A program made the position numbers and the translations under genes. A DNA stretch of 64,000 bases from Ohtaekwangia koreensis (GTDB taxonomy: Bacteria > Bacteroidota > Bacteroidia > Cytophagales > Cyclobacteriaceae). This document shows, one piece after another, positions 5,296-21,074 of the stretch (the first letter of the stretch is position 1; each line of letters starts with the position of its first letter). The notes under the pieces were generated by a model that was not told where the DNA came from, did no database searches, and was given only the letters and a program-made list of their open reading frames with translations. The stretch spans positions 67,001 to 131,000 of the forward strand of contig NZ_FUZU01000005.1 of assembly GCF_900167975.1 (NCBI RefSeq), in the 5' to 3' direction.

Positions 5296-8200
5296 ATGTG
5301 TGATGTTCGGAGACGATATTGGACAGTAGTAATTCTTTTCTTTCTTATAAGATTTGCTGCTGCCCAACCGTCCGGACTTCCTGAAAAAGAAATCATCTTC
5401 GATCAGCTTCCTGAGAAGCTTGGATTGTCTCAAAGTTCAATCAATTGTATCCTTCAGGATCGCGAAGGTTTTTTGTGGATAGGCACATGGTCGGGCTTAC
5501 TCCGCTATGATGGCTACTCCACCGTTGTATACCATTCTGATAATGCTCCCAATAAAATAAAGAGTAACAAGATCTCCGCGATCTACGAAGATAAGCAAGG
5601 ATACCTGTGGGTGGGTACACACATGGGTGGACTATTCCGCTATGATAAAAACAAAGATATATTTACACAGTTCAGTCACCACGAAGGTGATGCAAAAAGT
5701 CTTTCACACAACAATGTCAATTGCATAGGTGAAGACCAGTATGGAAATCTGTGGGTTGGTACAGAGAACGGCCTAAATGTATTTGACCCAGAAAATAAAA
5801 ACTTCGCATCTTTTTTTTCTACACCCAACGACACCACTTCGCTTGCCCAAAGTATAGTTACCGATATTTTTCTTTCTTCTTCGAAGGAACTATGGATCGC
5901 TACAGCAAATGGTTTGCAAAAAGTTTCAAAAGATGTCGCATCTCGCTATAGATTTAAAACCTATAGATATACACTTGACCCCGCAAATCAATATCATCAT
6001 AACTATATTTACAAGATATGTGAGCTTCCCGTTAATGGAAAGCCTGCGATATGGTTCTGTACGATTCGCGGATTAAAGAAGTTGCAGGATGGTGTGATCA
6101 CAAATTACCAGGTTCCGGATAAACCCAGCAGCTTTAGTTTTATCCGCTCCATGTATGCAGTGAAAGGAGCGCGTCCCTATATAATCACAGGTTCTGAGAA
6201 GGGGCTCAGTTTTTTCGATCCCGCTACAAATATATTTACAAAATTTATAGGTGACTTTGATCAGCGTGTAAACCTTTCACACGGTACAGTAACCGCCCTA
6301 TACCTGGATCGCAGTGGAGTGTTTTGGGTGGGCACAAAAAAAGGTCTTAATAAATTTGATAGCTACTCAAAAGACTTTCAGTCTTTCAAAACGGATTCCT
6401 TTGATACAGGTAAAAATATTATAACCGGACTGCGAAGTTCAACCGATCAGGGATACTGGATATCGACCATCGGTGGAGGACTCTATAAATTAAAGGGGAA
6501 GACGTTTCAGCGTGTTCGCATCATCGATCGTGATGATAATGACTTTGTGAATTTCATCCAGACAATATATACCGATACACGGGGCAATGTATGGTTGGGC
6601 ACTGCTGGAGCAGGTGTCTATCGGTTTCACCAGGATGATGTAGACGCTTCCACAGGGCGGGTAAGGAAGTTTGAACACTACGCTGCATTTTCTACTCCTT
6701 CTTTTAACAGTAACTATATCATGTCGCTGACAGAGGATAATATAGGCAATGTATGGATTGGAACGTGGAGTGGCGGACTTTACAAGATCACACCGGAAGG
6801 AAAGGTAACTCCCTATAGCGATGCATTGTTGCGCGAAGCTCCTCTCGTTGTGATGCATGCAGATCTTGCCGGCACGCTTTGGGTGGGTACGCGCGGTAAC
6901 GGATTATATAAGATCAAACCAAAAGGCGACTCGTTGGACATTCGTCAATTCCACAGACATGATAGCATCAAGGGAAACCTTTCCAACAACTTTATCAATG
7001 CTATATATGAAGATCATGCAGGACTGTTATGGATTGGTACAGAAGGCGGACTCAACTCGTTTGACCGAAGAACAGAATTATTCAAATACTATAAAATTGA
7101 AGAAGGACCAAGCAGCGATGTTATCGTAAGTATATTGGAAGATGATTCAGGTAAACTCTGGTTGGCACATTGGGACGGACTCACCGTTATAGATCCTTTG
7201 GATGCAAAGTTTGTAAAGCATTACGATCATCATGATCGCTTAGCGGGTGGCTTTTTTTACAACAACGTAAGCTATAAAGACGAAAAGGGTCGCTTGCTTT
7301 TTGGTGGATCAGAAGGATTTAACATCATTGATCCGAATGTCGTTGTAACCAATCCTAATTTTCCGAAAGTTGTTATCAACGATTTCCTGATCTTCAATAA
7401 GTCTGTTCCAACCGGAAGTGAATTTGACGGAAGGGTGATTCTCGACAAGCCTTTGTCCGCTATAGATCAGGTAACTTTAGAATATAGCGAGAACTCTATA
7501 TCATTTGAGTTCACGGCACTCGACTATGCTGCTCCTGAGAAAACGCGGTACGCCTATATGCTGGAAGGTTTTGATAAAGACTGGAATTACACCAATGCTT
7601 CGAGGCGCTACGCAAACTATACCAACCTGAACGAAGGGAAGTATATATTTAAAGTAAAGGCTGCCAACAGCGAAGGTGTGTGGAATGGAAACGTAAGTAG
7701 CGTAACGGTTGTAATGAATCCTCCGTGGTGGAAAAGCACGTGGGCAAGATTTATATACTTTGTTTTGGCATTGGGGATGTTGCACCTCTTTCGCACACTT
7801 GTTTTGATGCGGGCAAACTTTAAACATGATCTCCGGCTTGAACGGTTACAGCGTGAGAACATGGAGCAGCTTAACTATGCCAAGCTGCAGTTCTTTACCA
7901 ATATATCACATGAGTTTCGTACACCGCTTACACTGATTCTTGGTCCATCTCAAAGTTTACTGGATAAAGGTGAAGGTGGTAAAGAAACGCGCGACCAGTT
8001 ATTGAATATAAATAACAATGCCCAACGCTTGCTGCGCCTGGTCAACCAGTTATTGGATTTTCGTAAGGCAGAATCCGGTAATCTGAAACTTGAAGTGTCC
8101 GAAGGTAACATTGTCAAATTCATTAAAGAAGTTAAACTTTCGTTTGATACATTGGCAGAGCAGATGCGAATTGATTTTTCGCTATATGCTTCATCCAATA

Positions 8201-9462
8201 TTATCAAAGCATGGTTTGATCGCGATCAGTTCGAAAAGATCATGTTCAATCTTCTTTCAAATGCCTTTAAGCATACTCCGGAAGGAGGAAAGATCACCAT
8301 GCAAATCGTGGAAGGACAGGACGAGATCTCCATTACGGTAGAAGACAACGGTAAAGGAATCAAACGCGAACATTTTGATAGTATATTTCAAACGTTCTTC
8401 AGCTACGATGAAGATAAACATCACACCGGTACTGGTATAGGTCTTGCATTGGCGAAGAGTCTGGTGGATATGCATCACGGCAAATTGATGGTGCAGAGTG
8501 AAGAGAATTCGTTCACACGGTTTGTAATAACGTTACCTAAAGGATCTGCACACTTCGATGCAGCCGAGCTGCTGTCGGTGTCTAAGGATATAGAGAGTAT
8601 GGATCGTTATCCGACATTTAAACCACAGCCTATACTTATACCTGAAAAAGATACCCAGGCCATTGCGGAAAACTTGAAGGACCTTCCCAAACTGTTGTTG
8701 GTGGAAGACAATGATGAAGTACGTACCTATATCAGATCCATTTTTGACGGAACCTATATAGTGCTGCAGGCATCAGAAGGAAAAGAAGGGCTGGATATAG
8801 CCTTGGAAGAAATGCCGGACCTGGTGATCAGTGATGTGATGATGCCGGTGATGGATGGTATAACATTGTGTACACAACTGAAATCAAATGTAAAGACTTC
8901 ACATATACCGGTAATTCTGTTAACGGCAAGAACTTCGCTGATCTTTAAAGTAGAAGGACTTGAGACTGGTGCCGATGACTATATAACAAAGCCATTCAAT
9001 CCCAAAGTACTTCAATTGAAAGTACGCAACCTGATGCGTATGCGCGAACTCATGCGCAAAATGTTTCGGGACAATGAAGTACTCACAATCGAGCCGAAAC
9101 GGGTAACGCTTACTTCCGCCGATGAAACATTTGTGCAGCAGGCGTTGGAGAGTATCGAAAAAAACATGAGCAATCCAGATTATGCTGTTGATGATTTGGG
9201 ACGTGATGTTGGGATGAGCCGCACGCAGTTATACCGTAAGCTTAAAGCTCTCACTGGACAATCTGCTAACGAATTCATTCGGGTTATTCGCCTGAAGCGT
9301 GCAGCACAATTACTCGAGCAAAATCAACTTACCATAGCCGAAGTTACATACGAGGTAGGATTTACCGATTTGAAATATTTCCGTGAGTGCTTTAAAAAAC
9401 TCTTCGGAGTTACACCTTCCGAGTTCGTTCAGAGAACAAGTGACGATTATCAGCTAGAGTAA
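5296..9462 (+). CDS. Hybrid two-component system (HTCS) regulator of the mannan locus
   Basis: A 1388-residue one-protein signalling system. Order: signal peptide (1-23), two seven-bladed propellers made of Reg_prop repeats (repeated LWIGT/LWVGT), Y_Y_Y domain (about 700-790), a membrane helix (about 815-835), histidine kinase with H-box NISHEFRTP (His872) and ATP-binding HATPase motifs, a receiver with VEDNDE and phospho-Asp1180 in SDVMMPVMDG, and a C-terminal AraC-type HTH (about 1285-1385). HTCS proteins sense imported oligosaccharides in the periplasm and activate the linked SusCD and enzyme genes. The gene lies 8 bases after the cupin gene, on the same strand as the mannanases, so its ligand is probably a manno-oligosaccharide. 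Its target promoter should be upstream of susC, outside the window. Confidence 0.94.
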   Translation: MCDVRRRYWTVVILFFLIRFAAAQPSGLPEKEIIFDQLPEKLGLSQSSINCILQDREGFLWIGTWSGLLRYDGYSTVVYHSDNAPNKIKSNKISAIYEDKQGYLWVGTHMGGLFRYDKNKDIFTQFSHHEGDAKSLSHNNVNCIGEDQYGNLWVGTENGLNVFDPENKNFASFFSTPNDTTSLAQSIVTDIFLSSSKELWIATANGLQKVSKDVASRYRFKTYRYTLDPANQYHHNYIYKICELPVNGKPAIWFCTIRGLKKLQDGVITNYQVPDKPSSFSFIRSMYAVKGARPYIITGSEKGLSFFDPATNIFTKFIGDFDQRVNLSHGTVTALYLDRSGVFWVGTKKGLNKFDSYSKDFQSFKTDSFDTGKNIITGLRSSTDQGYWISTIGGGLYKLKGKTFQRVRIIDRDDNDFVNFIQTIYTDTRGNVWLGTAGAGVYRFHQDDVDASTGRVRKFEHYAAFSTPSFNSNYIMSLTEDNIGNVWIGTWSGGLYKITPEGKVTPYSDALLREAPLVVMHADLAGTLWVGTRGNGLYKIKPKGDSLDIRQFHRHDSIKGNLSNNFINAIYEDHAGLLWIGTEGGLNSFDRRTELFKYYKIEEGPSSDVIVSILEDDSGKLWLAHWDGLTVIDPLDAKFVKHYDHHDRLAGGFFYNNVSYKDEKGRLLFGGSEGFNIIDPNVVVTNPNFPKVVINDFLIFNKSVPTGSEFDGRVILDKPLSAIDQVTLEYSENSISFEFTALDYAAPEKTRYAYMLEGFDKDWNYTNASRRYANYTNLNEGKYIFKVKAANSEGVWNGNVSSVTVVMNPPWWKSTWARFIYFVLALGMLHLFRTLVLMRANFKHDLRLERLQRENMEQLNYAKLQFFTNISHEFRTPLTLILGPSQSLLDKGEGGKETRDQLLNINNNAQRLLRLVNQLLDFRKAESGNLKLEVSEGNIVKFIKEVKLSFDTLAEQMRIDFSLYASSNIIKAWFDRDQFEKIMFNLLSNAFKHTPEGGKITMQIVEGQDEISITVEDNGKGIKREHFDSIFQTFFSYDEDKHHTGTGIGLALAKSLVDMHHGKLMVQSEENSFTRFVITLPKGSAHFDAAELLSVSKDIESMDRYPTFKPQPILIPEKDTQAIAENLKDLPKLLLVEDNDEVRTYIRSIFDGTYIVLQASEGKEGLDIALEEMPDLVISDVMMPVMDGITLCTQLKSNVKTSHIPVILLTARTSLIFKVEGLETGADDYITKPFNPKVLQLKVRNLMRMRELMRKMFRDNEVLTIEPKRVTLTSADETFVQQALESIEKNMSNPDYAVDDLGRDVGMSRTQLYRKLKALTGQSANEFIRVIRLKRAAQLLEQNQLTIAEVTYEVGFTDLKYFRECFKKLFGVTPSEFVQRTSDDYQLE

Positions 9463-9565: not shown

Positions 9566-12500
9566 TTAGACATCTCCTTTGGAAATAGGATCAATCTCAA
9601 TACTGTTCTTACTCATCTTTTGTTGATACTCTTTTGGCGTAACGCCAAATTCAGCTCTGAAGCATTTTGAAAAGTAAGATAGATTTGAGAATCCTACTTC
9701 ATACATGATCTCCGAAATGTTACCTTCTTTATTGCCCAACAATAGCGAAGCTTTCTTGATCCTGTATTTACGAATGATATCGTTTGGTGAAAGTTGCGTA
9801 GTGGATTTCAGCTTGCGGTATAAATGCGTTGAGCTCATGCCTACTTCATCACTCAGCATCTCGACACTGAAGTCCGGATTCGAAATATTTACTTCAATGA
9901 TGTTCATCACTTTCCGTATGAACTTATCATCTACATTTTCACCCGTTGCTGTTGACGAAGGTTGTACGAGCAATTCATGTTTAAAATAATCTGCAAGTTC
10001 TTTCTTACGCTTTAGTAAATGATCAATATGCGCTTCCAGCAAGTCAACCTCAAAGGGCTTGGTAAGGTATATATCGGCTCCAATGGTAAGACCTTCGATC
10101 TGTTGTGAAGTCAAGCCTTTCGCCGTAAGTATAATAATGGAAATATGAGTCGTCTTGGGATTACTTTTTATTTTCTTACACATGGAAAGCCCATCCATCA
10201 CCGGCATCATAATATCGCTGACAATTATATCAGGCAAAAAATTGCTCGCTTTATTTAAACCATCCTCACCATTCAATGCCGTAACGAAATTATACTTCTC
10301 TTTCAGACTCACTTGAATAAATTCGATAATGTCCGGATTGTCTTCAATGATCAATACCAACGGTTTGCCCGATTCCAATCCATAACGATACGCTTTCGAA
10401 TCATCTTCTGCCACAGATGATTTAACAGCAACCAGCTTCACTTCCGAATGATCTGTAGATTCGAATGGGAAATGTTGTGATCCCAATGGCAGGACTAACG
10501 TAAAGCAAGCGCCTTTACCGACTGTACTTTCCACTTGTATTTCTCCATGGTGAAGCTTCGCGTATTCTGCTACCAGCGTAAGCCCTATACCAGAACCTGC
10601 TTCAAGTTTTTTGGCGGCATTCGTTTGGTAAAAGCGTTCGAAAATTTTAGAAAGTTCATCCGGAGCTATACCTATACCTGTATCCGTTACCTTTACTTCA
10701 ATCGCGCCTTTGGTATACGTATCGTTTTTTCCAAGGAGCTCTACGGTCAGATCAACTACGCCACTCTCCGGAGTAAATTTGAAAGCATTGGATAGTAGAT
10801 TGAAGAGTATCGTTTCTATTTTTTCAGTGTCTGCCCATACCAGGCATTCATCTACACCTGCGTGAAAAGTAAAATTGATTTCCTTGCGATTCGCTTTATC
10901 CGTAAAGAGAGAATACATCTCACGACAAAACTGTACAAGGTCAAACGAAGTAACTTTTAATTGCAGACTATCATTTTCAAGTTTTCGAAAGTCAAGGATC
11001 TGGTTAACGACACGCAGCAGACGTTGTGAATTCTTTTCTGCCAAAGTTAGCAGGCGTCTGTTATCATCCGGAAGATGGCCACGCTTTATTAATTCCTGTA
11101 TAGGAGGAAGAATGAGACTGATCGGTGTTCGCAGTTCATGCGAAATGTTCGCGAAGAATTGCTGTTTGGTTTGTACGATCTCTTCAGCATGTTCTTTTTC
11201 GATGCGCGTGATTTTTAACTCATTTCTTAAATGTAGTCGGGCGGAGTATGTTCGCAAGGCGACAATCGTAACTGTGATCAACAAGAATATATAGAGTGCA
11301 ATGAAACCCGTACTTAGAAACAAAGGAGGCTTCACCCGTATATGGATAGTTGCTACATGATCACTCCATATACCATAGTTATTTGTGCCTTTTACAGTAA
11401 GTGTATAGTCACCAGGCGACAGGTTAGAATATACGGCAAAGTTCTTCAGCCCTGAAACATAGTTCCAGTCATGATCGAATCCATCCAGTTTGTATGCATA
11501 TACATTGCTTGAAGGCTGCCAATAATGCAAGGATGAAAACTCAAAAGCAATGGAACGTTGCGCATACTCCAGTGTCAGTTCATTGGTAACGGAGATGTCT
11601 TTCTGAAGTAACACTTCGCCATCGATCGCTTCATCGGTAGTTATGATTTTATTGTTGATCTCCAAAGCGGTGATGTATATATTCGGCTCGAACACGTTCG
11701 GCTTTACACGTGGTGAAAGCGTAATATACCCATTGTCGCCACCGAAAATAATTTCACCTTCAGGTGTATTGGCAACGCAACCGTCAAAGAAATTTTTCAA
11801 CGGTATATCTTTATCCAAAGGAAATATTTCAAGTTGGTGATCCGGCACGGAAAACTTTAGAATGAAATTACTGGCAGCACACCAGATGTTTCCTTCTGCG
11901 TCTTCCGTAATGCTGGCAAGCGTAATTTCATTTCCGGTAGTCACAGGATAAAATATAGCCGAATCGGTTTGTGGTTTATATTCAATCAATCCATTAGTAA
12001 CACCGGCCCACAAACTTCCTCTTCGTGAAAAGTATAGGCAGGCTATATCTTTTTTTTGAGATATAGAATTGAAAGCCTGAATGCTTGTGCTTTTATGCGA
12101 TTGCAGATCAATACGAAATAACTCTGCATAATGCGAGGCCCAGAGCGCATTGGCTCCACTTACATTTTTAGGTGACCCAAAATCACCGGCCAGTTCAAAA
12201 TGTATGGAAGATATCTCCTGAAAATTTCCGACTACTTTGAATAGCCCACCTTCCCATGCACTAACCCAGAACGAGCCGTCTGTACCTTTGGTAAAGCGCG
12301 CTATATAATTAGAGGTAAGTCCGTTGGTGGCATTCGCGCTGATAGCGTGCATTTTCTGTTTGGCTTCATCCCAGATATTTATACCTCCTGCAGTACCAAT
12401 CCAGATGCGCCCATAGTCATCCTCTTCCAGCGCAAATGTATTGTTGAGTTGGATGCGATTATTTTCGGGAGCACCGGTCTCAAATACCTGACGCGTTTTT

Positions 12501-13660
12501 TTTACCGGGTCAAAGCGGATTACTCCATGGAGTGTAGCAAGCCAGAGAATTCCTTTGCGTGTAACCAGCACAGCCTTTACCTGGTTGCCTATTGTTTGAT
12601 TGTTGATCGGGTAAGATACTTCGTGATAGGTATAAAAATTTCTGAACTTGTTAAGCCTGCTTAATCCATTGGAGGTAACAAACCAGATAACACCGCCAGT
12701 GTCTTCAAAGATCTGCCAGATCACATTGTTCGCTATAGAATACGACAATTGCGGATTGTGGAAATATACTGTATTGTTTTTCGAAGCAGGATTAAAAACA
12801 TTTAGTCCAAAGTCGGTGCCGAGCCACAGATTCCCATTCCCATCCGGATATATACATTTGATAACTTCGTTGCTAAACGGTATAGTCTTCTCGGTAAAGT
12901 TCTCAAAAGTATGGGTATAGGTGTTAAAAAGACAAAGGCCTGTTTCGGTTCCAATCCATAGTAATGAATCTGATGACGGCGAAGCAGGTTTGATATCGCC
13001 GCAAATCAGGTTGTTCTTCAACGAAGGTTTATAGCTTCCTTTCAGGTCGAAAGTAGTAAATGTATTCTTCCCTTTGGCAAGCTTGTTAAGTTTGTCATAC
13101 GTACCAACCCACAGGTTCCCACGCGAATCTTCAAAGATCGAGCGGATGGTATTGTGACTAAGGTGATTGTTGCGCGCTGTATATAGTATATATTTTCCGT
13201 CTGCCAAGGTATACTGTACGAGCCCGGTGGCTGTACCGATCCAGAGTTTCCCATTCGTACCTTTATATAATGTGCGCACTACTACATTTTTTCCAAGATC
13301 AATACGCGTCACTTCGAAAGTAGTCGTATTGATTTTGCAGAGTCCCTTCCAGGTGCCTACCCATAGATAATCACCAATCACCAGCAGTGAGCTCACCTCG
13401 TTGGCGGATAGGGTGTTCGTTGCCTCTCCTTTTTTAAAAGTGATAAACCGATATCCATCATAGCGGCAAAGTCCATTGGAGGTGCCGATCCACATAAAAT
13501 TATTTTTATCCTGGGCTACCCAGCTGATGATGTTGGATGGAAGTCCGTCACGCATGGAGAGCGTGGAAAAGAAAGGTGAATCCGCAAAAGCGACCGTAAC
13601 TACGGTTGTGATCAGGAGCAGGAAACTGATTGAAAATCTTTTAATAGAGGAGCCTGTCAT
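9566..13660 (-). CDS. Hybrid two-component system (HTCS) regulator of the galactan locus
   Basis: 1364 residues with the same architecture as the HTCS at 5296 and ending tail-to-tail with it: signal peptide ending near AFADSP, double propeller with LWIGT/LWVGT repeats, Y_Y_Y domain, one membrane helix, kinase H-box NISHELRTP (His841), HATPase motifs, receiver with EDNPD and phospho-Asp1149 in SDIMMPVMDG, then an AraC-type HTH ending FGVTPKEYQQKM. It is divergent from susC at 13890, which is a common HTCS/PUL arrangement. The shared 229-base intergenic region has a 21-bp-period direct repeat suited to a two-HTH AraC domain. The likely ligand is a beta-1,4-galacto-oligosaccharide, inferred from the GH53 genes. 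Confidence 0.94.
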   Translation of the reverse strand: MTGSSIKRFSISFLLLITTVVTVAFADSPFFSTLSMRDGLPSNIISWVAQDKNNFMWIGTSNGLCRYDGYRFITFKKGEATNTLSANEVSSLLVIGDYLWVGTWKGLCKINTTTFEVTRIDLGKNVVVRTLYKGTNGKLWIGTATGLVQYTLADGKYILYTARNNHLSHNTIRSIFEDSRGNLWVGTYDKLNKLAKGKNTFTTFDLKGSYKPSLKNNLICGDIKPASPSSDSLLWIGTETGLCLFNTYTHTFENFTEKTIPFSNEVIKCIYPDGNGNLWLGTDFGLNVFNPASKNNTVYFHNPQLSYSIANNVIWQIFEDTGGVIWFVTSNGLSRLNKFRNFYTYHEVSYPINNQTIGNQVKAVLVTRKGILWLATLHGVIRFDPVKKTRQVFETGAPENNRIQLNNTFALEEDDYGRIWIGTAGGINIWDEAKQKMHAISANATNGLTSNYIARFTKGTDGSFWVSAWEGGLFKVVGNFQEISSIHFELAGDFGSPKNVSGANALWASHYAELFRIDLQSHKSTSIQAFNSISQKKDIACLYFSRRGSLWAGVTNGLIEYKPQTDSAIFYPVTTGNEITLASITEDAEGNIWCAASNFILKFSVPDHQLEIFPLDKDIPLKNFFDGCVANTPEGEIIFGGDNGYITLSPRVKPNVFEPNIYITALEINNKIITTDEAIDGEVLLQKDISVTNELTLEYAQRSIAFEFSSLHYWQPSSNVYAYKLDGFDHDWNYVSGLKNFAVYSNLSPGDYTLTVKGTNNYGIWSDHVATIHIRVKPPLFLSTGFIALYIFLLITVTIVALRTYSARLHLRNELKITRIEKEHAEEIVQTKQQFFANISHELRTPISLILPPIQELIKRGHLPDDNRRLLTLAEKNSQRLLRVVNQILDFRKLENDSLQLKVTSFDLVQFCREMYSLFTDKANRKEINFTFHAGVDECLVWADTEKIETILFNLLSNAFKFTPESGVVDLTVELLGKNDTYTKGAIEVKVTDTGIGIAPDELSKIFERFYQTNAAKKLEAGSGIGLTLVAEYAKLHHGEIQVESTVGKGACFTLVLPLGSQHFPFESTDHSEVKLVAVKSSVAEDDSKAYRYGLESGKPLVLIIEDNPDIIEFIQVSLKEKYNFVTALNGEDGLNKASNFLPDIIVSDIMMPVMDGLSMCKKIKSNPKTTHISIIILTAKGLTSQQIEGLTIGADIYLTKPFEVDLLEAHIDHLLKRKKELADYFKHELLVQPSSTATGENVDDKFIRKVMNIIEVNISNPDFSVEMLSDEVGMSSTHLYRKLKSTTQLSPNDIIRKYRIKKASLLLGNKEGNISEIMYEVGFSNLSYFSKCFRAEFGVTPKEYQQKMSKNSIEIDPISKGDV

Positions 13661-13834
13661 ACGGCAAAGTTCTTTCTCGCGAAATGAAGTACGCTACATT
13701 TTAAGTGGGATGCAATCGTTTTTTGCGCGCCCGCTTGCACGCTGTTGCGGATGACTGAAAATTCATGCAAAAAGAAGGATTATAACTTCCAGTGGTTGGT
13801 TTTTTGTCGATTCCTGTAAGATTTGTGTCAAGCC

Positions 13835-13869
13835 TTGCAATCGTTTGAATATACATTGCAATCGGTTGA
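13835..13869 (+). promoter_or_regulatory. Direct repeat upstream of susC, candidate HTCS operator
   Basis: TTGCAATCGTTTGA at 13835-13848 and TTGCAATCGGTTGA at 13856-13869 match at 13 of 14 positions and start 21 bases apart, two helical turns. A third core, TGCAATCGTT, lies at 13711-13720 in the same orientation. AraC-type regulators carry two HTH motifs and typically bind direct repeats about 21 bp apart. The repeat ends 20 bases before the susC ATG, close for an activator site, so the exact transcription start is uncertain. Confidence 0.6.
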
Positions 13870-13889: not shown

Positions 13890-16800
13890 ATGAGCAGAAA
13901 ATTACTCTTTACAATTACAATGCTGATAACGGCCTGTTATAGCCTTCAGGCACAGCAAAAGGTTATCAACGGAAAGGTTACAGACGAGAACGGGAGTGAG
14001 CTTCCGGGTGTAAATGTTCTTCTGAAGGGGACGAGCCTCGGCACCGTAACGGATCAGACAGGATCGTACTCTTTGAGTGTTCCCGAAACGGAAAATACTT
14101 CAGGTATATTGACCTTCTCTTTTATAGGATACTTGTCAGAAGAAATCGCGATCAACAACCAGACAGCGATTAACATCCAATTGATGCCAGACATTCAAAC
14201 ATTGAGTGAAGTGGTTGTAGTCGGGTACGGAACACAACGCAGAGAAGATATTTCAGGGGCAGTGTCTTCTGTTAAAGCAGCCGACCTTCCACAGGTTGCT
14301 AACACTTCGATCGATAATTTATTACAAGGCCGTGCTGCGGGTCTTAACCTCACACAACGCAGTGCGCAACCGGGCGGTGGACTCACCGTGAATATACGCG
14401 GTGCTATATCTCCGAATGGTAACAATACTCCGCTATATGTTATTGATGGCGTGCCGGTATTAAACAATGGTACTTCCGAACCTTCGCTCACGGATAGCGA
14501 TCTTGGGTACTACGGTGGTATAGATCGTAATCCGCTCAGCAGTATCAACCCTTCTGATATCGAGTCCATTGATATTTTGAAAGATGCCAGTGCTACCGCT
14601 ATATATGGATCTGCGGCCGCAAATGGTGTAGTACTCATCACAACCAAACGCGGAAAGGCAGGTGCTGTAACCACCGAGTATCGCGGAAGCTATACTATAC
14701 AATCGCCCAAAGACTATTACAACCTGATGAACGCAACGGAGTTCATGCAACAGCAGAACCGTTTGGCGGGAGATAAATATCTATACGACAATGGAATTGC
14801 TCCCTATGGAAATACAGATCCGTCTTCAGTAGGAGCATTCGTTCCGAAATTTACGAACGAGCAAATTCAACAGGCCGGTGTTGGTACCGACTGGCTCGAT
14901 AAAGTAATGCGCAACGGAAGTATACAGGAACATAATATATCTCTTTCCGGTGGAACGGATAAGGCTAAATTATATACTTCGTTCAACTACTATAACAACA
15001 AAGCGATTTTAGAGAATTCGGATTTCGTGCGCTATACCGGCAGAATAAACCTGGAACAGAAACTTGGTGGCCGCGTTAAGTTCGGACTGAATCTTACATT
15101 AAGCCAGATCAACAATAAGAATGCATCGTCAGGGGCAAATGCCGGGGGTGTGGAAAAGTATAATATGCTGCAATCTGCATACGCGTATTCACCAACGGTA
15201 GGAGTATACGATAATAACGGAAACTATACAAAGACTTTTGATCCACTGATCACGAATCCTGTGGCATTTCTGAGTATAAAAGACAAAACACGTACAAGCC
15301 GTATCATTGCATCGCCTACATTGGAGATTAAGGTAACAGATGCCTTGAAAGCGAATGTTGTAGTCGGTATAGACAAACAATCATCAACGCGTAACTTCTA
15401 TTTACCACGTGCTGTACAAAATGCGCAGCTTCCACAAGGTATGGCGCAGTTAGGTTCCGGTAGTCTGGATAATTATACCACGGAAGCATACCTCACATAC
15501 GATAAGAAAGTTGGTCTCGGAAACCTTTCATTGGTGGCCGGTGCCGGATACTATAATAGTATACAGGAGTCGTTCAGCCTCCAGGCCGTTGATTTCTTTA
15601 CCGATGCGCTGGACTATAATAACATTGGTATAGGTGCCAATAAAGACAAGGCAATTATGAGTTCATACCGCTCTCCGAATGCTACAAAGATATCACAGTT
15701 CTTCCGGGCTAATTACTCACTGCTCGATAAGTATATCATTACGTTTACCGGAAGACGTGATGGATCGAGTACATTTCCAAAAGACAAATACGGATTCTTC
15801 CCGGGTATATCTGCAGCATGGCGCCTCAATCAGGAAGATTTCCTGAAGAGCTCTCCGCTGATTTCTGATTTGAAACTCCGTGCAGGTTATGGTACTGTAG
15901 GGAACGATCGTATCTCTCCAACCAACGCACTGGATCTTTATGAATCCGGATTTTATTACCTCATAGGCAATACATACTATAATGGTGTTACCCTTGCGCA
16001 GGTAGGAAATCAAAACCTGACCTGGGAAACGGATGTGATGATTAACGTAGGTATTGACTTTGGCTTGTGGAGTGATCGCATCAGCGGATCATTGGAAATA
16101 TACCAACGCACGGCAAAGGATCTGCTCGACTTCAATAAACTCCCTTCCAATAATGCTGACGGACAAGTGGCAGCCAACGTAGGATCTACACGCAGTCGTG
16201 GTTTCGAACTTTCCGTTACTTCCCGTAACATCGACAACGGCTCGCTTCGCTGGTCTACCACACTGAATCTTTCAACCTTCAAGAGCTATTGGGTGGAGCG
16301 CAATCCGCAAGTAGCATTGCCTGAATATATAGGAGCGAATGATCCCATCAATGCAGTATATGGCTGGAGAACGGATGGTATCATCACCAGCACAGCAGAT
16401 GTACCCGACTATATGGCCGGTGCAAAACCTGGTAACATCAAGTATATAGATGACAATGGCGATGGTGAACTAAACAGTGAGGATGTAGTGCTCCTCGGTA
16501 ACACGAGCCCAAAATGGAATATCGGTTTTGGTAATACAGTGTCCTACAAGAATTTTGATTTGAATTTTTTCTTCTATGGATTCCTGGGACAATCTGCATT
16601 TAATAACTATTCAGGTTTCTATGATCCGCTGCGTATCGCAAACAGCAATTCACAAAATACACTGACGGATGTAACGAATATCTGGACTGCTGAAAATCCA
16701 ACCGGAACATTGCCCGGTGTTGCAAGCAATCCGTATAGTGGCAACAATCCTACAGGCACGCATGACTTCTATTTAGAGAAAGCAAGCTTTGTGCGGTTGA

Positions 16801-16997
16801 AGAATATTACCCTCGGATATCGCTTGCCGGACCAACTGTGGGGTAGCAAGAAATTCATTCAGTCTGCCCGTATCTTTTTAGATGTACAAAACCTGGCGGT
16901 CTTCTCTAACTATAAAGGATACGACCCGGAGTATACGGAAGTTAATCCGTATCCACAGGCATTGTCCACAACCTTTGGTGTTAATCTTAAATTCTAA
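13890..16997 (+). CDS. SusC/RagA-family TonB-dependent outer-membrane oligosaccharide transporter
   Basis: About 1035 residues from ATG 13890. This start is chosen because it begins the clean signal peptide MSRKLLFTITML...LQAQ; an upstream TTG at 13845 adds 15 residues that do not fit and lies in the repeat. It has the N-terminal carboxypeptidase-D-like domain (VINGKVTDENGSELPGVNV), the SusC signature VVVVGYGTQRREDISGAV that includes the TonB box region, the plug with DILKDASATAIYGSAAANGVV, and a barrel ending FGVNLKF. It imports oligosaccharides across the outer membrane using TonB energy, with SusD as lid. The stop is one base before the susD start, so translation is probably coupled. Confidence 0.95.
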   Translation: MSRKLLFTITMLITACYSLQAQQKVINGKVTDENGSELPGVNVLLKGTSLGTVTDQTGSYSLSVPETENTSGILTFSFIGYLSEEIAINNQTAINIQLMPDIQTLSEVVVVGYGTQRREDISGAVSSVKAADLPQVANTSIDNLLQGRAAGLNLTQRSAQPGGGLTVNIRGAISPNGNNTPLYVIDGVPVLNNGTSEPSLTDSDLGYYGGIDRNPLSSINPSDIESIDILKDASATAIYGSAAANGVVLITTKRGKAGAVTTEYRGSYTIQSPKDYYNLMNATEFMQQQNRLAGDKYLYDNGIAPYGNTDPSSVGAFVPKFTNEQIQQAGVGTDWLDKVMRNGSIQEHNISLSGGTDKAKLYTSFNYYNNKAILENSDFVRYTGRINLEQKLGGRVKFGLNLTLSQINNKNASSGANAGGVEKYNMLQSAYAYSPTVGVYDNNGNYTKTFDPLITNPVAFLSIKDKTRTSRIIASPTLEIKVTDALKANVVVGIDKQSSTRNFYLPRAVQNAQLPQGMAQLGSGSLDNYTTEAYLTYDKKVGLGNLSLVAGAGYYNSIQESFSLQAVDFFTDALDYNNIGIGANKDKAIMSSYRSPNATKISQFFRANYSLLDKYIITFTGRRDGSSTFPKDKYGFFPGISAAWRLNQEDFLKSSPLISDLKLRAGYGTVGNDRISPTNALDLYESGFYYLIGNTYYNGVTLAQVGNQNLTWETDVMINVGIDFGLWSDRISGSLEIYQRTAKDLLDFNKLPSNNADGQVAANVGSTRSRGFELSVTSRNIDNGSLRWSTTLNLSTFKSYWVERNPQVALPEYIGANDPINAVYGWRTDGIITSTADVPDYMAGAKPGNIKYIDDNGDGELNSEDVVLLGNTSPKWNIGFGNTVSYKNFDLNFFFYGFLGQSAFNNYSGFYDPLRIANSNSQNTLTDVTNIWTAENPTGTLPGVASNPYSGNNPTGTHDFYLEKASFVRLKNITLGYRLPDQLWGSKKFIQSARIFLDVQNLAVFSNYKGYDPEYTEVNPYPQALSTTFGVNLKF

Positions 16998-16998
16998 A

Positions 16999-18510
16999 AT
17001 GAACGTACGTATGAAAAATATTCATCGATATAGTAAGCAATCTGTGATGCGTACACTGGTGGTGATGGCCGTGTTGCTGATCCCCCTGGCAAGTTGTGAT
17101 GATGCGCTGGAGACGAAAGTATATACCCAGGTGAGTCCTGAGAACTTCTTTAAAACAGAAGCTGATTTCAATGTTGCAGTGGTAGCCCTGTATAGCCCGT
17201 TCTCTACGAACTGGGGCATGGCCGATCCGGGCGACAATACGTGGTATAATTCACTGTATAATGCTGATAACAAAACCTACCTGATGCGCAGCATCCTGAC
17301 CACAGACGAAATGTTGAATGGCTGGGATCCGAACCTGGAGAATTTTACGTTTGGTCCTTCTACGTGGTCGGGTGGTAATGAAACGGTATACTATAAAATA
17401 CGTTTTGTTGCGCGGGCTACAGATGTTATCAACAAGATCAGCAATGCGACCGATGTTAGTGAATCCATCCGCAATAAATATGTAGCAGAAGCGAAAGTGC
17501 TGCGCGCCTGGCTCATGTATATACTATACGATTTCTTTGGCCCGGTAAACGTGAAGCTTGATCCGGCTACTTTAAATGATACTGAAATTCTTCCTCGTTT
17601 GAGCGATGAAGTATACACGGCACAAATGGAGACCGATCTGACAGAAGCAATTCCTTTTCTCGCAGAGAAATACAATGGAAATACAACCGAGTGGGGGAGA
17701 GTCTCGCAAGGTGTAGCGCGCATGGTATTGCTAAAGCTATATATGCATACAAAGCAATGGTCCAAAGCTGAGGCGATCGGAAAAGAAATTTTGAGTATGG
17801 GGTATGCACTCGAAGATAACTATGCGGATGTTTTTACAAAGAAAGGTAACAATGAGTTGATCTACGCGGTACCCTCAAGCGATGCAACGCCAAACTACTA
17901 TATACAAGAAGTTCTTCCTTCGGATTTCCGTCAGGCGGGAAACATCACACGTAAAGCAGGAGGATGGAGTGGCTATAATATGCCGTGGAGTTTCTACGAT
18001 AAATTCGAAGCAGATGATGAGCGCAAAACTGCAATCATCGATGCGTATACTGCGGACTGGGGCGAAGTAGACCGCACGGATACCTGGTGGAAAGGTCCGC
18101 TACCATTGAAATATACTTCTTTCACAGGCGATGGTCCCGGGTATGCAATCGATATGGTTGTATTCCGTCTCGCGGAAGTATATCTGTCGGTGGCAGAAGC
18201 GATCAATGAACAACGCGGTCCTGCGGAAGCATATACGTATGTGAACGAAGTGCGCAGACGCAGCGGTGTTGCCGACTTCGAAGATATGACGGAAGATGAA
18301 TTCCGTGATGCAATTCTTGATGAGCGCGGCCGTGAACTATTTGCGGAAGGTGTTCGCAGACAAGACTTGATCCGTCATGGTAAATTTATATCGGGTGCTA
18401 TAGCGCGTGGTAAGGATGCCAAGCCGCACCAGGTTCTGTTTCCGATTCCGAGTGCCGTGATTATCGAAGGCAGGGGCATCATCGAACAAAACGATGGCTA
18501 TACCAACTAA
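16999..18510 (+). CDS. SusD/RagB-family glycan-binding lipoprotein
   Basis: 503 residues from ATG 16999; ATG 17011 is an alternative. Signal peptide with lipobox LASC (Cys about 33) followed by DDALETK. SusD features include SPENFFKTEADFNVAVVALY at the start of the mature protein, the TPR-like region with LRAWLMYILYDFFGPVN and GVARMVLLKLYM, and the C-terminal VFRLAEVYLSVAEAINEQRG ... ILDERGRELFAEGVRRQDLIR and LFPIPSAV. It works as the surface lid and binding partner of the SusC encoded immediately upstream, with only one base between the genes. Bound ligand is presumably galactan fragments. Confidence 0.95.
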   Translation: MNVRMKNIHRYSKQSVMRTLVVMAVLLIPLASCDDALETKVYTQVSPENFFKTEADFNVAVVALYSPFSTNWGMADPGDNTWYNSLYNADNKTYLMRSILTTDEMLNGWDPNLENFTFGPSTWSGGNETVYYKIRFVARATDVINKISNATDVSESIRNKYVAEAKVLRAWLMYILYDFFGPVNVKLDPATLNDTEILPRLSDEVYTAQMETDLTEAIPFLAEKYNGNTTEWGRVSQGVARMVLLKLYMHTKQWSKAEAIGKEILSMGYALEDNYADVFTKKGNNELIYAVPSSDATPNYYIQEVLPSDFRQAGNITRKAGGWSGYNMPWSFYDKFEADDERKTAIIDAYTADWGEVDRTDTWWKGPLPLKYTSFTGDGPGYAIDMVVFRLAEVYLSVAEAINEQRGPAEAYTYVNEVRRRSGVADFEDMTEDEFRDAILDERGRELFAEGVRRQDLIRHGKFISGAIARGKDAKPHQVLFPIPSAVIIEGRGIIEQNDGYTN

Positions 18511-18591: not shown

Positions 18592-19770
18592 ATGAAAAGA
18601 TATATAGCTATAGCATTGGTTGCATGTACATTGATATTTTTGGCAGGTTGCGAGCAAGAGGTTGTTGTAAAAGATGGGCAGGTAGAGCAGGATATAGTAC
18701 AGCAACCAGGCACTTCCTCTGCGAACGCAAAGGCTAGTGGTCTTACGTATCGGGGCATGGATTTATCTTTCGCGTATAAAATTGAAACGCAACGCGGTGG
18801 TAAATTTTATTATGCGAATGGTTCGGCCGGTACCGTGTTTGACATTGCGAAAAGCTCGAATGTAAATCTGGTGCGTTTGCGCCTGTGGGTTAACCCCGAT
18901 GCAAATCATAAAGAATGTAGTCTCGCAGCAGTAAAGGAACAAGCGAAGAAAATTGTTGCGAAGGGTATGCAGTTCATGCTCACGTTGCATTACTCAGATA
19001 CATGGGCTGATCCAGGCACGCAAACTAAACCGTCTGCATGGAGCAGCCTCACGCAGCAACAACTGATTGATAAAATCTGGTCCTATACCAGCGATGTCAT
19101 GAACCAGTTAAAAAGCCAGGGTACAGCACCTGCAATTGTACAGATCGGTAATGAAATCAACGGAGGTTTTTTATGGCCAACGTTCAAAGTATCTGCTGAC
19201 AGCGACACGAATTGGGACAACAGTTTCGAGTATGCTATCAACTCCGGGTATAATGCTGTAAAGACTGTATTCCCGAATACAAAAGTGATGTTACACTATG
19301 CGGGTATATGGGCTGATAATTTTTTCTGGCGCTGCAGCAAGTTCGGAATACAATATGATATCATGGGTTTCTCCTGGTACCCCGAGTGGCATGGGAAAAG
19401 CTTTTCAGATGTATATAATCAGTTGAACAACCTCACATCATGGTATAGCAAAACGTGTATCGTAGTGGAAACGGCCTATCCATGGACAACGGGCTATGCT
19501 GATCAGGCGGGAAATGTACTGGGCACCGGAAGTCAGATGTCCGGATACGCCATGACACCAGCGGGACAGCAAGCATTCATTGAACAACTGATGGCAACGG
19601 TGAAGTCTATTCCCAACAACAAAGGATTAGGCGTAGTATACTGGGAGCCTGACTGGACAGCCTATAATGGAGCATCTGCTACCAACTGGGAGAATGGTTC
19701 TAGTTGGGAAAACGCTGCGCTGTTTGATTTTAGCTGGAAAGCAATGCAAGGATTCAATGCCTTTAATTAA
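18592..19770 (+). CDS. GH53 arabinogalactan endo-beta-1,4-galactanase, lipoprotein
   Basis: A 392-residue lipoprotein. Lipobox LAGC (Cys20) is followed by EQEVV. GH53 motifs are clear: YRGMDLSFAYKIE at the start of the domain, VRLRLWVNP, MLTLHYSDTWADPGTQTKP, the acid/base in VQIGNEINGG (Glu188), GFSWYPEWHG, and the nucleophile in VVETAYPWT (Glu293), ending GVVYWEPDW. GH53 is dominated by a single activity, retaining hydrolysis of beta-1,4-galactan as in pectic arabinogalactan I. Lipid anchoring suggests action at the outer membrane, supplying SusCD. It is the first of two tandem GH53 genes, which differ clearly in sequence and so are not a recent copy. Confidence 0.94.
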   Translation: MKRYIAIALVACTLIFLAGCEQEVVVKDGQVEQDIVQQPGTSSANAKASGLTYRGMDLSFAYKIETQRGGKFYYANGSAGTVFDIAKSSNVNLVRLRLWVNPDANHKECSLAAVKEQAKKIVAKGMQFMLTLHYSDTWADPGTQTKPSAWSSLTQQQLIDKIWSYTSDVMNQLKSQGTAPAIVQIGNEINGGFLWPTFKVSADSDTNWDNSFEYAINSGYNAVKTVFPNTKVMLHYAGIWADNFFWRCSKFGIQYDIMGFSWYPEWHGKSFSDVYNQLNNLTSWYSKTCIVVETAYPWTTGYADQAGNVLGTGSQMSGYAMTPAGQQAFIEQLMATVKSIPNNKGLGVVYWEPDWTAYNGASATNWENGSSWENAALFDFSWKAMQGFNAFN

Positions 19771-19783
19771 TCTATAGTATACT

Positions 19784-19832
19784 ATATACTTCAGGTATGA
19801 GAGATATAACTCTCTCGATACTTGAAGTATAT
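19784..19832 (+). promoter_or_regulatory. Long imperfect hairpin between the two GH53 genes
   Basis: Left arm 19784-19804 and right arm 19811-19832 pair over about 21 bases with one G-T pair and one bulged base, around a 6-nt loop (tataac). It lies in the 98-base gap between the GH53 coding regions, with no T tract. Like the hairpin after susD, it may set relative expression within the operon. Confidence 0.5.
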
Positions 19833-19868
19833 AAGAGTGAATTTAAACTAAAGACGAGTATTCAAGAG

Positions 19869-21074
19869 ATGAAATTCAGAAGCGCGCTAGCGATCGCCCT
19901 CACAATATGTCTGTTTTCTTTTGTGAATTGTAAGGAAGATGATGATCCGACAATAGATGATCCGGATGGAGAAGAACCACGTGACCTCACCGGTTTTTAC
20001 TTTGGTGCCGATCTCTCGTATGTAAACCAGGTGTTGGATCACAACGGTGTATATAAAGATGGTGGTGTTGTAAAGAATCCATATCAGATTTTTAAAGATC
20101 ACGGTACCAACCTGGTGCGCCTACGGTTATGGCATAACCCTTTATGGACGAAAGAAGTATACGGCGCTCAGGGAACTCAATTGTATAATGATCTTTTTGA
20201 TGTAGCGAAGTCGATGCGACTTGCCAAAGAGCAGGGCTTACCGGTGCTGCTTGATTTTCATTATTCGGATACATGGGCTGATCCGGAGAATCAAAAGATA
20301 CCGGTTGCATGGAAGGAGATCAGGGACATTACGGTGTTGCGTGATTCAGTATATAATTATACCTATAAAACGCTTCAATACCTCAATGCACAGGGTATCA
20401 TGCCGGAGCTGGTGCAGGTTGGTAACGAAACGAATTGTGGCATGCTCTATACCGATGCTCCCGAGGGTTTCCCTGCCTGCAATGTATGCAACGGCGCATG
20501 GCAACAATTCGGAACGGTAGTGAAGGCTGCTATAGATGCAGTGAAGGCAGTTTCAGCAGTATCATCTGTAAAAACTAAAATTATACTTCATGTTGCAGAT
20601 CCCAAGAACGTGGAGTGGTGGTTCGATAATATTATGGCAAAAGGTAGTGTTACTAATTTTGACATGGTCGGTTTTTCTTATTATCCATTGTGGCATCCAA
20701 CCGTAACACTCGATCAACTTTCTGATAGAGTAGCGGCATTTAAAAATAAATATAGCAGGCCTGTTATCATGCTTGAGACAGCATATCCTTGGACTACCGG
20801 AAGTGACGATGCCTATAATAATAACTTCGGAAATGAATCGGCTATTGCCGGATTTCCTTTTTCTAAAAAGGGCCAGTCAGATTTGCTCATCAAGCTTACG
20901 CAAGAGATGCTTGATGGCGGAGGGCAAGGTGTTGTCTATTGGGAGCCTGCATGGATCAGCTCAGGTATGAAAGACCTTTGGGGTACCGGATCATCGTGGG
21001 AGAATTGCGCCTTCTTTGATTTTGAAGGCAACGCCACAGAGTCTATTGACTTTACAAAGTATAGTTATAAGTAA
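19869..21074 (+). CDS. GH53 endo-beta-1,4-galactanase, second copy, lipoprotein
   Basis: 401 residues from ATG 19869. This start is chosen because it gives a proper signal peptide with lipobox FVNC, while the upstream ATG 19797 lies in the hairpin. Cys20 is followed by KEDDDPT, fitting a surface-export signal. GH53 motifs are FYFGADLSYVNQV, LVRLRLWHNP, DFHYSDTWADPENQ, VQVGNETNCGM (acid/base Glu187), FSYYPLWHP and LETAYPWT (nucleophile Glu303), ending VYWEPAW. It carries an internal NVCNGAW segment absent from the first copy, so the two enzymes may prefer different chain lengths or branching. Both probably work on galactan at the surface. Confidence 0.93.
   Translation: MKFRSALAIALTICLFSFVNCKEDDDPTIDDPDGEEPRDLTGFYFGADLSYVNQVLDHNGVYKDGGVVKNPYQIFKDHGTNLVRLRLWHNPLWTKEVYGAQGTQLYNDLFDVAKSMRLAKEQGLPVLLDFHYSDTWADPENQKIPVAWKEIRDITVLRDSVYNYTYKTLQYLNAQGIMPELVQVGNETNCGMLYTDAPEGFPACNVCNGAWQQFGTVVKAAIDAVKAVSAVSSVKTKIILHVADPKNVEWWFDNIMAKGSVTNFDMVGFSYYPLWHPTVTLDQLSDRVAAFKNKYSRPVIMLETAYPWTTGSDDAYNNNFGNESAIAGFPFSKKGQSDLLIKLTQEMLDGGGQGVVYWEPAWISSGMKDLWGTGSSWENCAFFDFEGNATESIDFTKYSYK

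Follow-up and report, generated by a model that had tools for sequence, protein, structure and literature searches.

A 21-bp direct repeat at the susC promoter of an Ohtaekwangia koreensis GH53 locus: a candidate LacI-type operator beside a putative HTCS site

A direct repeat between a divergent HTCS gene and susC

The susC gene of a GH53 locus in Ohtaekwangia koreensis is closely preceded by a 21-bp direct repeat and faces a divergent HTCS gene, which raises the question of whether the repeat is the operator of that HTCS, as the first-pass annotation of the window (the whole stretch of 64,000 nucleotides that was analysed) had proposed. The HTCS (9566-13660, minus strand) consists of a Reg_prop propeller, Y_Y_Y, HisKA, HATPase and receiver domains and an AraC-type HTH. 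It is followed on the plus strand by the genes for a SusC/RagA TonB-dependent transporter (13890-16997), a SusD-like lipoprotein (listed ORF 16882-18510) and two members of the endo-galactanase family GH53 (18592-19770 and 19797-21074), all of which had been named correctly. susC and the listed SusD ORF share 116 bases (16882-16997), which makes a later true start for SusD probable. A second HTCS gene (5296-9462, plus strand) is convergent with the first and adjoins two GH26 genes; the repeat was set aside as a site for the HTCS of this GH26 locus, judged by its place alone.

The repeat is composed of copy C (TTGCAATCGTTTGA, 13835-13848) and copy D (TTGCAATCGGTTGA, 13856-13869), both on the plus strand, which are identical at 13 of 14 positions with a period of 21. 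These letters, coordinates and values agree exactly with the earlier description on re-checking, as do the 20 bases that separate the end of the pair from the susC ATG at 13890. C/D is the sole place in the 64-kb window where lags of 15 to 32 give an identity of at least 13/14, and 200 shuffles within 200-base blocks give a mean of 0.04 such places at lag 21 with a largest value of 3. The pattern of the pair, with up to three mismatches allowed, occurs once as against none in 100 dinucleotide shuffles. In the 7,241,272-base (7.24-Mb) genome, which the first-pass annotation had itself suggested searching, TGCAATCGNTTGA is present at exactly two sites, and both lie in C/D. The shuffle controls and the genome-wide uniqueness rule out a single chance repeat as the source of C/D. 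Neither a sigma-70 promoter nor a terminator was found at the C/D site; to our knowledge, sigma-70 promoters are not expected in Bacteroidetes.

The upstream repeat and a predicted -7 box

Two different 21-bp repeats adjoin at the susC promoter, and only a comparison across species separates them. Orthologues of the HTCS sensor were identified in 32 of 390 genomes of the family (E <= 1e-120); they come from Cytophagales including Dawidia soli, Parachryseolinea silvisoli and Chryseolinea serpens. The upstream regions of 30 of these loci were compared by footprinting, with G350 and G273 left out. The second repeat consists of copy A (TGGTTGGTTTTTTGTC, 13793-13808) and the promoter-proximal copy B (CTGTAAGATTTGTGTC, 13814-13829), both on the plus strand and each a proposed HTCS half-operator. 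Copy B carries ten of the ten letters of the consensus TGTAnGATTTG, at least nine of which are found in 23 of the 30 loci; the remaining seven score below this, and some of them show weaker forms by eye. Across the 23 loci, the upstream stretch that most resembles B is located at lag 21 (6.87 of 13 letters, lags 12 to 31), with lag 19 as the runner-up (5.09 of 13), and A/B (13793-13829) is thus itself a 21-bp direct repeat.

A predicted -7 box (TACATTGC, 13852-13859, plus strand) is located 26 bp past the core of copy B. It is of the form TAnnTTGC and matches TAnnTTTG, which is the -7 consensus known for the phylum (PMC7366714; here and below, papers are cited from excerpts), at only four of six letters. 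Among the 25 loci with a copy B anchor score of at least 8, nine have an exact TAnnTTTG at 26 bp past B and five further loci have TAnnTTGC at the same distance. At 27, three loci show one of the two forms or a form close to them, and another four have a box with five of six letters at 47, which is one repeat further (26 + 21); the box is absent in any of these forms and distances from L040, L041, L045 and L046. The A/B layout is common to loci that contain GH53 only and to those that bear susC, and HTCS orthologues have it in their upstream regions both with and without C/D. A second copy of TGTANGATTTGTG (G000:C2:9064) was rejected as a related site since it has neither a -7 box at 26 nor a direct repeat.

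A comparable arrangement is seen in Dyadobacter, which belongs to another NCBI family. The strict consensus TGTAnGATTTG fails in this genus, where all eight loci score 6-8, and the geometry was found afterwards by means of the anchor GATTAT, which was chosen by eye. All eight loci contain a GATTAT-bearing 21-bp repeat with TACCTTGC, the same -7 form as in O. koreensis, exactly 26 bp downstream. Lag 21 gives the best resemblance (7.88) with lag 18 a close second (7.00). The C/D pair is absent from all eight (L172, L173, L175, L177-L180 and L182).

AraC-type activators usually sit just upstream of the core promoter, where A/B lies. One AraC domain contacts two grooves approximately 10 bp apart, so that a 21-bp repeat suits two AraC domains, as in a dimer, and not the two HTH motifs of a single domain to which the first-pass annotation had matched it. 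Predicted HTCS direct repeats have a mean spacing of 21 bp, and HTCS bind as dimers (Ravcheev 2013, PMC3878776). Like these Bacteroides motifs, A/B as well as C/D repeat a unit of about 14-16 bp in direct orientation with a period of 21 bp, next to an HTCS gene and ahead of susC; unlike them, the C/D copies are dyads and are placed over the core promoter, whereas A/B is free of both problems (PMC3878776). The presence of a 21-bp direct repeat next to the gene for an HTCS does not suffice to identify the operator of that HTCS. A/B appears the likelier operator and a better fit than C/D, because it is conserved together with HTCS orthologues and keeps a fixed distance to the -7 box. Operator, 26-bp interval and -7 box make up a promoter model that can be put to the test in Cytophagales, beyond the Bacteroides of the gut.

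Dyad symmetry of copies C and D

The C/D pair is present in 10 of the 30 orthologous loci, all ten with susC next, and it is absent from eight other susC-next loci in this set; G074 and G359 each have a single copy of this type. What stands of the original proposal is a real and unique repeat with a 21-bp period at the susC promoter, while its assignment to the HTCS gives way to A/B, which fits better. Members of three genus groups retain C and D, with drift outside the core CAAnCGnTTG, which is self-complementary. For 17 distinct copies, column shuffling gives p values of 0.00075 to 0.003 for this symmetry and of 0.002 to 0.005 for C alone and D alone, compared to 0.24 for copy B and 0.04 at best for copy A, in a test which is somewhat favoured by the symmetric search pattern used to call the copies in the relatives. 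Identical copies were merged for this test and the single copies of G074 and G359 taken in, while two stray 7/8 matches (L046 and L057) were omitted along with the third core (13711). CG is found at the centre of 15 of the 17 copies, the other two being GCAACGGGTTGC copies with GG. In O. koreensis, copies C and D read as the LacI-type dyads GCAATC|GTTTGA and GCAATC|GGTTGA, respectively. Individual copies are imperfect dyads with 3-5 of 6 symmetric pairs, and they share a one-sided TTGA end as in a directional repeat. The period is 21 here and 22 in G127 and G156.

LacI operators are even palindromes with a central CG which often occur as tandem sites with a peak at 22 bp, and for two regulators of this family all sites are double, with a spacing of 21-22 bp; RafR and ScrR are examples of regulators with double sites so spaced (PMC4052901). 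C/D is reminiscent of the RafR and ScrR sites in its central CG, its CAAnCGnTTG core, its 21-bp period with both copies on one face and its location less than 60 bp from the start codon, and differs from them in its imperfect outer letters, in having no adjacent lacI and in a binder that is only a candidate (PMC4052901). A scan of the 390 genomes for tandem dyads yields nine matches as against one in the reversed control. Five of these are the GH53 susC locus and one is a chance match in coding sequence with a period of 20. The other three (L072, L073 and L076, each at 1501-1532) are perfect LacI-type dyads with a period of 21, whose neighbours, named by reading their translations, are a divergent lacI, a pectin-locus susC and a GH13-like gene. 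Since the copies form imperfect dyads, mostly centred on CG, which are arranged in tandem at 21 bp over the predicted -7 box and start, C/D is assigned with moderate confidence to the LacI class of operators.

The presumed DNA-recognition regions of the HTCS AraC domain are nearly the same in nine of 12 aligned orthologues and differ at one or two residues in L010, L013 and L014. This bears on the possibility that C/D is after all the HTCS operator, with one AraC domain per copy in an unusual place over the core promoter. Such a role would account for direct repetition with the 21-bp spacing of predicted HTCS motifs (PMC3878776), for the one-sided TTGA end of both copies, for their uniqueness in the genome and for the adjoining divergent HTCS. 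However, a pair restricted to a third of the loci sits poorly with recognition regions that hardly vary, the fixed distance to the -7 box belongs to A/B instead, and the copies are dyads that overlie the predicted -7 box and start, all of which makes this role unlikely. The first-pass annotation was right to worry that an activator at C/D would have an unusual promoter geometry, and the road-block that it offered as an alternative comes near to the repressor now preferred.

Less likely again, C/D may be the site of a palindrome-binding regulator that is not a LacI protein, or the region around the -7 box (TAnnTTGCAA) may have been duplicated in tandem in this lineage and retained for promoter strength. 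Copy D begins with TTGCAA, which follows TACC in the dyad-free -7 boxes of Dyadobacter, and C and D could have arisen as a 21-bp duplication, but the conservation of both copies in three genus groups with drift outside CAAnCGnTTG argues otherwise, and copy C is without the TA of the -7 box. Least probable is an array of four tandem HTCS half-sites, which would make activation stronger or co-operative or let occupancy limit itself. The ATnnTTTG letters common to B and C speak for it, as do the spacings of A, B, C and D by their TTTG/TTG ends (21, 22 and 21 bp), which place all four on one side of the DNA, but B and C differ outside these letters and 20 of the 30 loci are missing the C/D pair.

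A composite promoter and its candidate repressor

The sequences of the two repeats, their conservation, geometry and dyad symmetry are observed directly. By a modest balance of probability, they point to a composite susC promoter in which an HTCS site (A/B) lies upstream of a tandem LacI-type repressor operator (C/D) on the core. An activator bound to C/D would cover polymerase contacts, and an activator on A/B together with a repressor on C/D fits this constraint. The -7 box at 13852-13859 predicts a susC start at about 13862, relative to which A/B would extend from approximately -70 to -34, copy C from -28 to -15 and copy D from -7 to +7. The HTCS would sense a galactan-derived ligand, bind A/B as a dimer and activate transcription from the position typical of AraC-type proteins. 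A LacI-family repressor would occupy C/D as two adjacent dimers on the same face of the DNA, where they would cover the spacer, the -7 box and the start and block the promoter until a sugar ligand releases the repressor. Which two proteins bind, where transcription starts, whether each protein acts positively or negatively and which ligand is sensed are what we infer from the sequence.

In B. thetaiotaomicron, arabinan is an established case of dual control by an HTCS and the sugar-responsive repressor AraR (PMC5061871), and the AraR and HTCS regulons overlap, pectic galactan genes included (PMC4666351). The proposed promoter resembles this system in that a polysaccharide-sensing activator and a sugar-sensing repressor would act on one PUL; unlike LacI proteins, AraR belongs to the NrtR family, and the promoter geometry here is read from sequence (PMC5061871, PMC4666351). 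A limited literature search, which included excerpts of a review (PMC10766802), found no report of HTCS and LacI at one promoter. If the LacI part is true, the locus would be a second case of the logic that joins a polysaccharide activator to a sugar repressor, with a repressor of another family.

The genome encodes nine LacI proteins, none of them in the window. One LacI gene (C3:888337) sits with kduI, an SDR gene and uxaC, and has GH28 and pectinesterase genes near it. Its operator, GCAATCGATTGC, shares the GCAATC half with C/D and is found at three places in the pectin-LacI region. It also precedes the susC of a GH106 locus, 19 bases before its ATG, and, in what may be a rhamnose locus with a RhaA match under its cut-off, has a GntR gene on one side and a GH43-like gene on the other. 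Contexts were viewed for the six GCAATCGATTGC rows (five places) of a 16-row site list and for four others, of which three are in coding sequence and one is before a susC-like ORF. The GCAATCGATTGC sites of this genome (L104:10530, L105:524, L105:10582, L106:9653 and L107:8217) outline a pectin-type LacI regulon whose operator is invariant and which relatives share.

GCAATCGATTGC is near all 11 pectin-LacI orthologues of at least 72%, the own genome excluded, and near 14 of 20 loci overall. Orthologues above this line are present in nine of the ten genomes that carry the C/D pair and in three of the 20 others, and in none of the eight susC-next genomes without the pair; the Fisher p value for co-occurrence is 0.00013, which ignores shared descent and uses a 72% line set post hoc. 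In G127, G156, G305 and G182 the C/D copies have drifted, while in relatives where they read GCAACGGGTTGC / GCAAACGGTTGA the recognition helix of the pectin LacI is the same at 15 of 15 residues and GCAATCGATTGC is unchanged. G182 has the C/D pair and lacks the pectin-LacI orthologue. The unchanged helix and operator, the drifted copies and the case of G182 imply that another LacI may bind, and CAAnCGnTTG sites are also found near three or more of the other LacI loci in the genome. The pectin-locus LacI is the leading candidate for the C/D binder, albeit with low confidence. If it binds there, the uptake of galactan would be coupled to the breakdown of pectin, and a doubtful extension of the model is an AND gate in which the galactan PUL opens only when a side-chain signal through the HTCS coincides with a backbone signal from pectin catabolism through LacI. 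A MalR-like LacI (L082) was rejected as the binder because it is widely present and so not discriminating, and the TCAAnCGnTTGA operator class (20 sites vs 5 in the reversed control) was considered and set aside.

The third core, which had also been described before, is confirmed as TGCAATCGTT at 13711-13720 on the plus strand, 51 bases from the HTCS start. It comprises one good LacI-type half-site, and seven of its eight core letters are kept in three of three close relatives (G177, G213 and G197). The stretch at 13711-13727, TGCAATCGTTTTTTGC, is a half-dyad kept in three relatives and located about 125 bp from copy C, where it may possibly serve as a looping site.
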